Assembly (NCBI GenBank): GCA_029246995.1
Contig: JAQWMB010000024.1
Location: forward strand, 1 to 44,128
Reading direction: 5' to 3'
DNA: 44,128 nucleotides
From: Dehalococcoidia bacterium
GTDB lineage: Bacteria; Chloroflexota; Dehalococcoidia; UBA2979
Shown: positions 8,668 to 42,959 of the stretch, piece after piece
How the letters are laid out: each line of letters opens with the position of its first letter
Position numbering within the stretch: the first letter of the stretch is position 1
Program-made: the position numbers and the translations under genes
Notes under the pieces: generated by a model
Seen by the model: only the letters and a program-made list of their open reading frames with translations
What the model was told of the DNA's origin: nothing
The model's database searches: none

Positions 8668-9459
8668 TTACATACTACTGCTTAGATCAATGGGCAAAGT
8701 AAGTCCATTGGTTGACAATTGAGAATTATGCACAGAAATTGTTTGATTTGCAAAAGATTGTAATGTAGCAAGAATAAATTTTGGTTCAATTGCAAGGCCC
8801 AATTCTCTTATAGATTTAAATAACTCAGAATTTTGAATTTCTTTATTGTCCATTACTCCTGAATAATTTAGTAATTGATTCCAGAGATGTTCATTCGATT
8901 CATTCCGTATTTCAAAATTACAGGTTGTTGCTACAGGTCCTCGATCAACTTCTTTTGTAGCTTGATGCATCATCATTCCAGATATTTTTGAATTAGCTTT
9001 AATTAGTTTAATAATCACCTCTTGCCATGTTCCTGTTGGACCATCAGGCAGTGCAGGATGTAAGTTTAATAGATAATTTTTCTTACAGAATGCGGCAGAA
9101 AAAATTAACATATACCCACCTAGTATGCCAATATCATATTCCTGATTATCTATCAATTTATTAATTTCAATATCATAATCCTCTCGCCATTGAGGTAACG
9201 ACTCTCCATTTTGATTCAGAGATAGTTTATAATTTTTTTTAAAATCTTTAGATGAAAGAGTAAGTAGTGTGATTTTCTTTTTTTCAACTTCATTAAAAAA
9301 TAAGTCAGTATTGTTAGATTCATTTGGAGACCTATTTGAAAAAACAAATTCAATATTTGCATCCAATGCACCACTCTGTATTGCAGTAGCTACGTTGTCA
9401 AACATACCTTTTGAACCGGGACCTCGTGCTGTAGTAAACCAACCTATGCGTAAAGTCAT
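8668..9459 (-). CDS. purN: Phosphoribosylglycinamide formyltransferase-like protein (PurN family, divergent)
   Basis: A 263-residue folate-dependent formyltransferase expected to formylate GAR in purine synthesis. The catalytic triad residues are all present: Asn and His in NLHPALPDGPTGTWQEV and Asp in KEVDRGPV. It is longer than E. coli PurN (about 212), and its N-terminal loop reads TTARGPGSKGMF rather than the usual SGNGSN type; from memory this variant occurs in Chloroflexota. ATG at 9459 is chosen because GAGG lies nine bases upstream; a longer TTG start at 9477 or ATG at 9468 would sit on that ribosome binding site. It starts two bases after the xseB stop. Specificity for GAR is inferred, not shown. 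Confidence 0.82.
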   Translation of the reverse strand: MTLRIGWFTTARGPGSKGMFDNVATAIQSGALDANIEFVFSNRSPNESNNTDLFFNEVEKKKITLLTLSSKDFKKNYKLSLNQNGESLPQWREDYDIEINKLIDNQEYDIGILGGYMLIFSAAFCKKNYLLNLHPALPDGPTGTWQEVIIKLIKANSKISGMMMHQATKEVDRGPVATTCNFEIRNESNEHLWNQLLNYSGVMDNKEIQNSELFKSIRELGLAIEPKFILATLQSFANQTISVHNSQLSTNGLTLPIDLSSSM

Positions 9460-38881: not shown

Positions 38882-38958
38882 GGGCGGTTAGCTCAGTTGG
38901 TTAGAGCGCTTCGGTGACATCGAAGAGGCCACTGGTTCGAATCCAGTATCGCCCACCA
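38882..38958 (+). tRNA. tRNA-Val (anticodon GAC)
   Basis: A 77-base cloverleaf. The acceptor arm GGGCGGT pairs with ATCGCCC, with one G-U pair. The D arm is GCTC/GAGC. The anticodon stem CTTCG/CGAAG holds loop GTGACAT, giving anticodon GAC, which reads GUC and GUU. The T arm is ACTGG/CCAGT around TTCGAAT. The 3' CCA is encoded. The first lipoprotein gene starts 26 bases downstream on the same strand. Confidence 0.96.
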
Positions 38959-38984
38959 TAATTATCTTTTTTGAGCTCGTGTGT

Positions 38985-40889
38985 ATGAAAAAATTTGTTC
39001 TTATTGCCTCTATTTTATTTATTGCAGGATGCGGCAGTGATACCTCAGCACCACAAACAGCTACCTCAGCACCACAAACAGCTACGTCAGTACCAGAAAC
39101 AGATGCAGATCTTAACAAAAAATTTCTTATTCGTGATCCAAAAGACGTTGTATTGGCTAAAAATAATAAACAACTAACAAAGGCTATGAATTTAGTAGGG
39201 GGTGAATTTACAACAATTGTAGAATCAGATGGTGAGTGCGCACAACGAACACAATTATTTAGTGATGAAATCTCTGATCAAGCTCGCTTCAATCTAGAAG
39301 TTATTTTTGGCAAAAAATTTGATCAATTAAACAATAATGACATTAAGCAAATGATAAGTCTCAATTTACAATCAGAAGATACTTTGGATTGGAGTCAAGC
39401 TACATTTGGAGACACAAAAGTGCCTAGGACTGATTTATCCTCGTATGATGGCATAGAATATTTAACTTGCTTGCAATGGCTCAAATTTGGCGATTCTCTG
39501 AGCCGTGATTTTACTTTCTTAAGGAACTTGTCAGAGATACGATTTTTACATGCACAGTTTTTAACTCTTGGATATTTTAGAATAGTTGACCTACAATCAA
39601 TGACCAAAATTGAGAGCATCATTTTACCGAATAGATTTCTACAACTGCCGGCACTTGCACAATTTAATAGCCTCAAAAACATTGTTGCGAGCAATAGTGC
39701 AACATGTAATATCAAACCGCTGCTTGCAATGCCAAATCTTGAATATCTTGATCTCGAGGATTCTCAATATCATACATCGATAAAACTCCAAGAAAATAGA
39801 ATGAATTATCCATTCACCATGACCGCAGATCCTTCTGGCCAATATCTGCAATTGCTGACCAAAGGTGGAACAAGGCGATTTAATGCTGAGCCTGATTTTA
39901 CGTTATCAGAAGAAGAAACTGAAGGAACACATTATAACAAGCGATATCTCATGGAGGTCATGCAATCTATTTATGAGATAGCTCCAGATATATATGACGT
40001 TATTATCTTTGTAGGAAATGAAGATGAAAGTTTTGCATCTTATAGTGGAGAGGCTACAATGATTAGCAATAACACTCCAGGTATCGGTGATCCAATTTGG
40101 TCTGCAGCAGACTGCTATGGCTCAGAAGGACGCTTACGCGGCATGATTACATTCCCATCACCACAACACTTATTTAGTGTTGATGAATATAGCTGGAATA
40201 GCCCATTTACGCATGAATTATTGCATTTATGGGGAGGGGGGAATCTGCTACCATACTCTGAAGATACTAAAGGCATATTTACAGGAGGGCACTGGGGTGT
40301 AACCTCAGCTGACGGTATTTTAGGAGGCTTCAATAAAGGTTTCTTAGAAGAGGTTGAAACTAATGTCTATCGTGTAAATTATTTTAGCCATAATGGTAAT
40401 GCAGGTTTAGAAAGATCATTATCACCACTAGAGCAGTACTTTATGGGGATACTTCCAGCAGACTCAGTACCTGAGACTGTGATTATGCGTGGCGTACAAC
40501 AAACAGTAAATTCAAAAGGAGAAAAAGGCAATTCATGTGAAGCATACGGATATGAGTGGTGGGATGGATCATGTTTTAAAGCTGACAGCAAAGAGATACT
40601 TACAGTCGACCATATTATAAGAGTTTTTGGTGAACGTTCGCATGAAGGCAATGTTGAAATTTCTATGCTTGTTGTTGCTGTTAGCGAAGAGTCATTAACA
40701 GATCGTGAATGGGAGCAAATCACTCAACCTATATCATGGCTCTCATCAAATCAATACAGCACGCCAACTGATTACAAGATCCTTGATCCAATTTGGAAGG
40801 CTGCCAATGTGGATAAGCCAAAGAATTTATATGACGCATCTAACGGAGCAATTAAAGTAGTTTTCCCAAAACCAGAAATTGCTAGGTAA
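38985..40889 (+). CDS. Lipoprotein with LRR-like region and HExxHxxG metallopeptidase-like domain
   Basis: A 634-residue secreted lipoprotein: signal peptide MKKFVLIASILFIAGC with a lipobox Cys at 16, then a Thr/Ser/Pro linker made of three 7-residue repeats (TSAPQTA). Residues about 145-260 look like degenerate leucine-rich repeats (LRNLSEIRFL, LQSMTKIESIILP, LLAMPNLEYLDL). The C-terminal half contains HELLHLWGG at 410-418, an HExxHxxG zinc motif, followed by GGHWGVTSADG, whose His436 may be the third ligand, and then LSPLEQYFMGILP. I recall similar HExxH...HWG...S(P)xExYxMGxxP proteins from marine metagenomes but no characterised member. ATG 38985 fits the signal peptide; the ribosome binding site is weak. 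Base composition is visibly less AT-rich than the housekeeping genes. Confidence 0.75.
   Translation: MKKFVLIASILFIAGCGSDTSAPQTATSAPQTATSVPETDADLNKKFLIRDPKDVVLAKNNKQLTKAMNLVGGEFTTIVESDGECAQRTQLFSDEISDQARFNLEVIFGKKFDQLNNNDIKQMISLNLQSEDTLDWSQATFGDTKVPRTDLSSYDGIEYLTCLQWLKFGDSLSRDFTFLRNLSEIRFLHAQFLTLGYFRIVDLQSMTKIESIILPNRFLQLPALAQFNSLKNIVASNSATCNIKPLLAMPNLEYLDLEDSQYHTSIKLQENRMNYPFTMTADPSGQYLQLLTKGGTRRFNAEPDFTLSEEETEGTHYNKRYLMEVMQSIYEIAPDIYDVIIFVGNEDESFASYSGEATMISNNTPGIGDPIWSAADCYGSEGRLRGMITFPSPQHLFSVDEYSWNSPFTHELLHLWGGGNLLPYSEDTKGIFTGGHWGVTSADGILGGFNKGFLEEVETNVYRVNYFSHNGNAGLERSLSPLEQYFMGILPADSVPETVIMRGVQQTVNSKGEKGNSCEAYGYEWWDGSCFKADSKEILTVDHIIRVFGERSHEGNVEISMLVVAVSEESLTDREWEQITQPISWLSSNQYSTPTDYKILDPIWKAANVDKPKNLYDASNGAIKVVFPKPEIAR
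39042..39104 (+). repeat. 21-bp tandem repeat in the lipoprotein linker
   Basis: Two identical 21-base units (39042-39062 and 39063-39083) and a third diverged copy (39084-39104) encode TSAPQTA, TSAPQTA and TSVPETD just behind the lipid-modified Cys. It forms a flexible linker and can change length by slippage. Confidence 0.9.
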
Positions 40890-40931
40890 TGTTCTTATCT
40901 ATTATGGCTTCTTCACCAAAAGAAACCTTGC

Positions 40932-40937
40932 TATGCT
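40932..40937 (+). promoter_or_regulatory. Candidate extended -10 giving a leaderless mRNA
   Basis: TGCTATGCT contains an extended -10 (TG, one base, TATGCT at 40932-40937). It ends six bases before the ATG of the second lipoprotein, which has no ribosome binding site, so transcription would start at or next to the ATG. A four-codon frame ATG CTA ATG TCA TGA also overlaps the start. Confidence 0.35.
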
Positions 40938-40943
40938 AATGTC

Positions 40944-42959
40944 ATGAAAAAGATTGTATTCGTTATATCTATCCTTTTTATTGCAGCGTGTGGTGGTAAC
41001 GTGACTGACGAAGCCACGCCAGGGGCAATCGCGCAAGTTCAACCACTGTATTCTGGCACACTGTTTCTTTCACCAGACATATTGGATAATTCTGACCCGT
41101 CTTTTTTTGTGTCATTAGAGAAAATTACAGATGAACAAAGGAGAATGTTTGATAGAAGAAATGGCATGAATGAATCATATGGTGGCGGTAAATGGATAGA
41201 GACAGTTCCGTTTTTATTTATTGCGTATTTTTCTGATGGACAAGAAATTGAAGTGCAGGTAAATAAAGAATTTGAAAATGCAAATGCAGCACAAGAGGTT
41301 GCATTGCCATATCTAGATGCCATTGGTAAATTGCCCTCGTTATTCAGAAAAGACGTTGAAACAATCTGGCTGCATAAAGGCACGAAAGGCTTTGGAGGAG
41401 GTAATAATAATTTATTAATCCACCATGGCAGAGGATTAGAATATATGAAAGATGGCCTATTAGAGGAAGCATTTTTACATGAAGCATCGCACACTTCATT
41501 AGATCGCGAGCATGCTTCTTCAAAAGGGTGGTTAGCAGCTATGCAAGCTGATGGTGGTAATTTCATCTCAGATTATGCAAAAGAATACCCACAAGGAGAG
41601 GACATTGCAGAAACATTTCCAATATGTTTTGCTGTGCAGTATAAACCAGAGAGTTTGAAGAAAAGTGATATTCAAAAAATTAAAGAATCTATCCCAAATA
41701 GACTCGCATATTGCAATAAGGTTTTTGAACAATACGAACTGAATAAAGAAACAACACAACCTATTTCACAACAAGTGCCAAAAGTTCAAGTTCTAGAGAA
41801 AGAGCCTCTAGGCAAAAGCTGCACGCTGGCTAATGGTGAGATCGTTGAAGATGGTTGGCGAGGAAAAGGAGCTGGTAATAACTACTGTAATAATTGTTTC
41901 TGCTCAAATGGCATGCTTGGTTGTACAAAAATGGCTTGTCCTCCACTTGAAACGAAAATGAAAATACAATCTGATATGATCAAAGGTGGACAGATAGAAA
42001 GAATAAATCCATCAAATAATACTATCACTGTTCATTTTGCAAAAATGGATGGAACACCAGATGTAATCATGGATGATATTCGTCAAGGAATATTAGATAG
42101 CAGCCAGCTGCTACCAATTAATGAAGAGAGCAGTGGTGTAACATCTGGTGATTTATATGTCACAGTCTGGCATACAGATAAATCTGATCACGCTGCTGTT
42201 GTTGAATATCGTTGCACATATACACCATATTGCTCTGAAGAACATAAACAAGATCTAATACGTCGCAGTGCAACACAAGGTATTGGTGCTGCCATGCTCT
42301 CAGATGAACAACCTATTTTTGAAATTGTATGGCGTACTAATGATCAGCATGAGTTTTTGCCAGAAAGCCCGTGGGTGGTTGCTGGACATGAATGGACGCA
42401 TACATTCCAAAGTGCAAATATTGTCAATGCACCGTTAGCTAATTCATTCGGATTAGAAACTGTGCCACGCACTGGACCGATATGGTTGCTTGAAGGAACA
42501 GCTGATTTTATTGGTAGATTGATTGCACAAGAGAAGCGTGCTGTTGTAGAAGGATATGATGTACGCCAACGTTCAAAAGAAGCCATTCAATTTACAACAG
42601 ATATGTTTAAGATGAGCCCGCAAATCCAAGCAAATGATGTATTATCACAATGCGAAAGTCCAGCAAATCAAATTGCTTTTGAAGCTCAAGCAGGCGGTCA
42701 GGTAGATCCCTCGTGGCCGTGTGTATCTGGCTCCTCAGCCATCAATTATTTAATGCATTTAAATGAGGCTCAGAGCATCAATAGAATTCATCGCTTTTAT
42801 GCAGATATATCGAGCATTGGTTGGCAAGCGTCATTCCAAAGAAATTATGGGCGGACAATAGAAACGTTTTATGAAGAGTTTGGTAATTTTCTTACTAACT
42901 CAATGCCGGAGAAACATGCTGTAATAGATGATCTGTATGCATCGCTCACTTTGAACTAA
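40944..42959 (+). CDS. Lipoprotein with two metallopeptidase-like domains and a pacifastin-like module
   Basis: A 671-residue lipoprotein: signal MKKIVFVISILFIAAC with lipobox Cys16. Domain 1 (about 35-260) has HEASH at 179-183, then GWLAAMQADGGNFISDYA and GEDIAETF with a possible third ligand Glu219 or Glu223; this resembles the anthrax-lethal-factor/gluzincin pattern. Residues 293-332 hold six cysteines (293, 315, 318, 320, 327, 332) in CNNCFCSNGMLGCTKMAC, matching the pacifastin protease-inhibitor (LCMII) pattern CNxCxC...GCTxxxC. Domain 2 (about 340-671) has HEWTH at 482-486 and WLLEGTADF with Glu517, the gluzincin HExxH...E layout; Cys pairs 424/430 and 570/593 may form disulfides. All active-site residues are kept. 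Its substrate is unknown. It lies 54 bases after the other metallopeptidase-like lipoprotein. Confidence 0.75.
   Translation: MKKIVFVISILFIAACGGNVTDEATPGAIAQVQPLYSGTLFLSPDILDNSDPSFFVSLEKITDEQRRMFDRRNGMNESYGGGKWIETVPFLFIAYFSDGQEIEVQVNKEFENANAAQEVALPYLDAIGKLPSLFRKDVETIWLHKGTKGFGGGNNNLLIHHGRGLEYMKDGLLEEAFLHEASHTSLDREHASSKGWLAAMQADGGNFISDYAKEYPQGEDIAETFPICFAVQYKPESLKKSDIQKIKESIPNRLAYCNKVFEQYELNKETTQPISQQVPKVQVLEKEPLGKSCTLANGEIVEDGWRGKGAGNNYCNNCFCSNGMLGCTKMACPPLETKMKIQSDMIKGGQIERINPSNNTITVHFAKMDGTPDVIMDDIRQGILDSSQLLPINEESSGVTSGDLYVTVWHTDKSDHAAVVEYRCTYTPYCSEEHKQDLIRRSATQGIGAAMLSDEQPIFEIVWRTNDQHEFLPESPWVVAGHEWTHTFQSANIVNAPLANSFGLETVPRTGPIWLLEGTADFIGRLIAQEKRAVVEGYDVRQRSKEAIQFTTDMFKMSPQIQANDVLSQCESPANQIAFEAQAGGQVDPSWPCVSGSSAINYLMHLNEAQSINRIHRFYADISSIGWQASFQRNYGRTIETFYEEFGNFLTNSMPEKHAVIDDLYASLTLN

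Follow-up and report, generated by a model that had tools for sequence, protein, structure and literature searches.

A leucine-rich repeat lipoprotein with a putative zincin-like domain encoded next to tRNA-Val in a Chloroflexota genome

Zincin-like metallopeptidases of clan MA carry an HExxH sequence with a conserved Glu residue, and two of their groups, together with the internalins, are the described proteins closest to the lipoprotein reported here, termed P1. The metzincins (clan MA(M), e.g., M10 and M12) resemble P1 in having an HExxHxxG-like start, a further His residue, a downstream Tyr, and sometimes a Met. Among the gluzincins (M1 and M61), HExxHxW serves as a signature of M1 aminopeptidases too, and P1 likewise has HExxH with Trp at the M1 position. 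Internalin-type leucine-rich repeat (LRR) surface proteins are cell-wall-anchored or secreted, and P1 is similar to them as an exported protein with a short SDS22/internalin-like LRR and an N-terminal cap-like stretch.

The window (the whole stretch of DNA that was analyzed, 44,128 nucleotides) comes from a Chloroflexota genome of 1.19 Mb, in which it is contig 23. Its nearest relative is the MAG Anck29-46 (QGNP01; labeled G001 and hereafter called the sister genome), which was the sole other genome of the genus in our comparison. This MAG belongs to the AncK29 clade, is of Arctic Ocean origin, and comprises 1.11 Mb with 32% GC (PMC6123686). The marine, small-genome bacterium that encodes P1 is placed in this clade as well. 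The gene for P1 (38985..40889, + strand) lies immediately 3′ of a tRNA-Val (GAC) identified by ARAGORN (38882..38958, + strand) and encodes 634 amino acids from an ATG at 38985, with a GTG at 38979 as an alternative start. From the N to the C terminus, P1 consists of a lipobox (C16), a linker, the LRR region, and a C-terminal domain. Its leader (38985..39045, + strand), which was compared with the leaders of sister-genome genes, holds a signal peptide and the lipobox IAGC within MKKFVLIASILFIAGC, in agreement with the bacterial lipoprotein pattern [LVI][AST][GA]C. The open reading frame, the lipobox (IAGC16), HELLHLWGG (410–418), GGHWG (434–438), LSPLEQYFMG (479–488), and the LRR-like region were each found where the preliminary description had placed them.

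The LRR-like character of the segment was borne out by phmmer, because residues 140 to 260 (39402..39764, + strand) match internalin A with an E value of 1.6e-7, as is expected of tandem units of a short internalin/SDS22-like LRR. Two NCBIfam internalin models gave weak matches to this region (E 0.005–0.007), and scans of P1 and its sister orthologue gave no Pfam LRR match above cut-off, with LRR_4 in the orthologue falling below it.

For the remainder of the protein, the earlier view that this HExxH lipoprotein is uncharacterized held: the C-terminal domain (residues ∼287–595; 39843..40770, + strand) has no model in Pfam, NCBIfam, PHROG, or PADLOC, and a PDB sequence search with it returned nothing at significance. 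We call the domain uncatalogued relative to these five resources. Around HExxH there are similarities of non-significant strength to M12 (Pfam Reprolysin_5, E 0.08–0.12) and to M1 (E 0.3), and two weak PDB matches (E 0.31 and 0.95) include a cold-active aminopeptidase. Membership in a defense system was also considered and was rejected, given that P1 has no PADLOC match.

Relatives of the domain were nevertheless recovered by profile matches in Chloroflexota, where they occur within the genus, in other families, and in another class, and in Acidobacteriota. P1 and its sister orthologue are 54% identical over ∼580 residues, and a two-domain genus profile matched a protein from another class of Chloroflexota (G134) with an E value of 8.8e-14. 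A four-row profile then reached four further genomes that belong to the window's class but not to its genus, as well as a C-terminal piece at a contig end in G025. Three of those four yielded motif-bearing frames, while in G525 just a C-terminal fragment is present, at the end of a contig. The distribution is patchy: members turned up in seven of the 393 class genomes and in two of 400 sampled from the phylum. This genome survey covered Chloroflexota, and the Acidobacteriota member came from tblastn against plasmids, where WP_013572926 on Granulicella tundricola plasmid pACIX901 was matched with E values of 2e-4 (G134 query) and 8e-6 (G628 query). It was the sole relative among phage and plasmid sequences. 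Profile scans and a single-protein scan of viral contigs found no relatives of the domain, and a scan of these contigs for the motif HE[LM]GHRW returned only unrelated phage HExxH proteins and out-of-frame or chance matches. As judged by sequence comparison, this is a real, conserved HExxH domain that is common to Chloroflexota and Acidobacteriota and has no model in the libraries searched.

The domain occurs in several architectures. An LRR precedes it in P1 and in G134, where a plant-type LRR array, interrupted by a stretch of Ns and different in type from that of P1, runs in frame into the domain. In G628 the order is choice-of-anchor X, domain, Big_1, and other arrangements exist. The choice-of-anchor X model (NCBIfam NF041940) scored 28.5 bits for G628 relative to a cut-off of 25 bits, 24.1 bits for G585, and 17 bits for G621. 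We also observed that the Granulicella family member is encoded directly 3′ of a gene whose product has a DPP IV N-terminal domain and carries a proteolysis annotation (L025:1-4582).

Seven motif-bearing sequences, two of which are close relatives, could be aligned, and identity over the domain outside the genus is 18 to 25%. Two separate alignments agree that H410, E411, H414, W416, H436, Y485, G488, V495, G549, and R551 are invariant, and D335, D338, G368, and S380 are further invariant columns of the domain alignment. The HExxH residues (H410, E411, and H414; 40212..40226, + strand), His436 of GGHWG (40290..40292, + strand), and Tyr485 and Gly488 of the segment S480–G488, SPLEQYFMG (40422..40448, + strand), are thus kept in all seven. 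The order of motifs that had been proposed as a search pattern recurs in these divergent proteins as HExxH, the His of GH[WFY], and the Tyr and Gly of SPxExYxxG, and the loss of His and Glu residues that would have spoken against it was looked for and not seen at H410, E411, H414, or H436. The motifs therefore exceed a chance resemblance. Parts of the proposed motifs were less durable: alongside the invariant His436, Tyr485, and Gly488, the residues at positions 417 (GGGSGSA across the set), 437, 483 (E, E, E, D, E, S, and V), and 487 (M or A) vary, such that Gly417, Trp437, and Glu483 are not family features.

These patterns suggest that P1 is probably a membrane-anchored LRR lipoprotein with a new zincin-like peptidase domain in which His436 acts as the third zinc ligand. 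A zincin-type metal site is indicated by HExxH with its invariant Glu, and His436 is the best candidate for the third ligand because it is the sole fully invariant His besides the HExxH pair. Zinc would most likely be held by His410, His414, and His436, with Glu411 as the putative water-activating residue. A stabilizing or substrate-contacting role would best suit Tyr485. Among family members, 14 to 22 residues separate HExxH from His436, and His436 may therefore reside on a variable-length loop after the active-site helix, but a zinc ligand held in place by the fold does not usually vary in this way. The LRR may hold a protein substrate or partner at the cell surface. Zinc binding, proteolysis, and substrate are features that we infer, as is the fold, because AF2 models built from two sequences reached pLDDT values of only 36.1 (whole P1) and 32.5 (domain alone). 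These values are too low to judge zinc geometry, and the unreliable models (32–36) show the order helix, strands, HExxH helix, which would be compatible with a zincin fold, whose active-site helix lies between the beta sheet and a C-terminal subdomain.

A third ligand other than His436, for instance an acidic residue of SPLEQY used in a gluzincin-like manner, would accord with the M1 signature HExxHxW and with the cold-active aminopeptidase among the weak PDB matches. We consider this highly doubtful, since position 436 is always His whereas the acidic residue at 483 is replaced by Ser or Val in two sequences. The domain might instead retain a zincin fold and metal site yet serve mainly in binding or sensing, either as a pseudo-peptidase or as an HExxH enzyme that does not cleave proteins, the LRR being its working part. 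HExxH proteins that are inactive or perform other chemistry are known (PMC11266112 and PMC12636437), and the LRR is the part of P1 with a recognizable relative. However, a Glu general base is usually lost in pseudo-enzymes, and Glu411 is invariant in all seven sequences despite the divergence of the domain, which makes this explanation unlikely. We therefore retain the assignment of P1 as a probable peptidase with His436 as metal ligand. The domain spans at least two phyla, and H410, E411, H414, H436, and Y485 are its priority residues.

Downstream of P1 lies P2 (40944..42959, + strand), a mosaic lipoprotein of 671 amino acids with an HEASH domain, a pacifastin-like Cys module, and an HEWTH domain. 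The corresponding locus of the sister genome has the order thrS–tRNA-Val, lipoprotein A, and lipoprotein B, wherein A comprises the first domain of P2 with a different C terminus, and B comprises the Cys-rich module with the second domain of P2. The P2a block (41033..41762, + strand) is 94% identical in DNA to lipoprotein A (L016:14541-15270), and the Cys-rich module block (41755..41942, + strand) is 94.7% identical to lipoprotein B (L016:16992-17178). Compared with the sister, P2a has 87% protein identity and 82% identity at fourfold-degenerate sites, and the module has 94% and 71%, respectively. Fourfold-site identity is 29 to 49% for eight neighboring genes, 42% for P1, and 37% for P2b. High identity in P2 begins at residue 30, just past the leader, and the joint between P2a and the module bears the microhomology CACAACCT, which is common to both sister genes. 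P2 is most simply read as a recombinant, an A-like gene fused to a B-like gene; a DNA block of ∼94% identity among genes with near-saturated silent sites suggests that lineages have recently exchanged surface proteins. The mosaic may alternatively stem from a chimeric assembly in one MAG.

The first 60 bases of P1 are 88% identical to the leader of lipoprotein A, whereas the P1 leader has only four of 18 residues in common with that of its own orthologue. The tRNA-Val site, a recombination-prone lipoprotein site, thus appears to have kept its own leader and to have received the P1 body behind it. Seen across the two species (window 38882-42959 and L016:14323-18250), the position directly after tRNA-Val(GAC) is a variable lipoprotein site, with leader kept and body replaced. 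The PNPOx gene on the 3′ flank had no match in the sister genome (sister contig C5).

This history bears on the proposal in the preliminary description that P1 and P2 form a functional unit. The 54 bases between the P1 stop codon and the P2 start were confirmed, and the signal peptides, reported as nearly identical, are indeed similar but have only 12 of 18 residues in common around the lipobox cysteine. A single co-expressed unit for external degradation would be compatible with two genes on the same strand with related leaders and this short gap, in which no promoter or terminator signal exceeded the level expected by chance from shuffled sequences, and with the presence of both genes in both members of the genus. 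Conserved adjacency or co-occurrence was nonetheless not found. The sister orthologue of P1 is on another contig (contig 13), and the syntenic site holds two different lipoproteins; although both contigs end near the genes concerned (the P1 orthologue and lipoproteins A and B), the orthologue cannot occupy the same place because lipoprotein A directly follows tRNA-Val there. Other genera of the family carry the two peptidase halves of P2 as separate lipoprotein genes without P1, and the present form of P2 is apparently a recent fusion. With the P1 body behind the leader of the site and P2 a recent mosaic, the two proteins need not act together; their pairing seems to be a local, recent arrangement, and the idea of a paired unit, which we judge to have little chance of being correct, is not supported.

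A wider synthesis, namely that P1 represents a new zincin family with its third His on a variable loop and that the tRNA-Val locus swaps peptidase and Cys-rich modules of surface lipoproteins behind a resident leader, is put forward tentatively, at somewhat less than even likelihood. If true, module swapping at tRNA-Val would diversify surface proteolysis in this streamlined marine bacterium. The P2 mosaic itself indicates that surface lipoproteins evolve by module exchange in a genus whose genomes are 1.1 to 1.2 Mb.

The Cys-rich module (CTLxNGEIVEDxWRGKGAGNNYCNNCFCSNGMLGCTxMAC) scores above the Pfam pacifastin cut-off in two lipoproteins and occurs at window 41755-41972, L016:16992-17200, L018:4593-5015, and L005:7738-7902 and 8863-9141. 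A zinc-ribbon-type membrane protein encoded by the window genome contains it as well, and degenerate copies are found in the P1 orthologue of the sister genome and in an adjoining small lipoprotein. To our knowledge, an inhibitor-like module is unusual in bacterial surface proteins. Further HExxH proteins of exported or P2b-like type are encoded in the window genome (L018:5094-6341, L045:5569-7449, and G000:C28:22758-23261, L019), among them a lipoprotein of 415 amino acids with HEYFH and a protein of 626 amino acids with HELGHWIG.

Compared with the known systems, P1 was rejected as a metzincin because Gly417 is G, S, or A, the fixed spacing of HExxHxxGxxH/D is absent from a family whose next His lies 14 to 22 residues past HExxH, and Met487, the sole candidate examined for a Met-turn, is not conserved; Reprolysin_5 was reached only at the non-significant E values given above. 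Assignment to the gluzincins failed in a similar manner: Glu483, the sole acidic candidate examined, may be E, D, S, or V, E411 is the only Glu in invariant columns, and the M1-type PDB chains were matched only at E 0.3 to 1. P1 did not match M61; a weak similarity to M61 was seen in P2. Choice-of-anchor X proteins are linked to the family through G628, which carries the NF041940 motif N-terminal to the domain, whereas P1 is without this motif and instead is lipid-anchored and has an LRR. Unlike the internalins, P1 is a lipoprotein, and its LRR comprises only ∼5 repeats that are fused to an HExxH domain.
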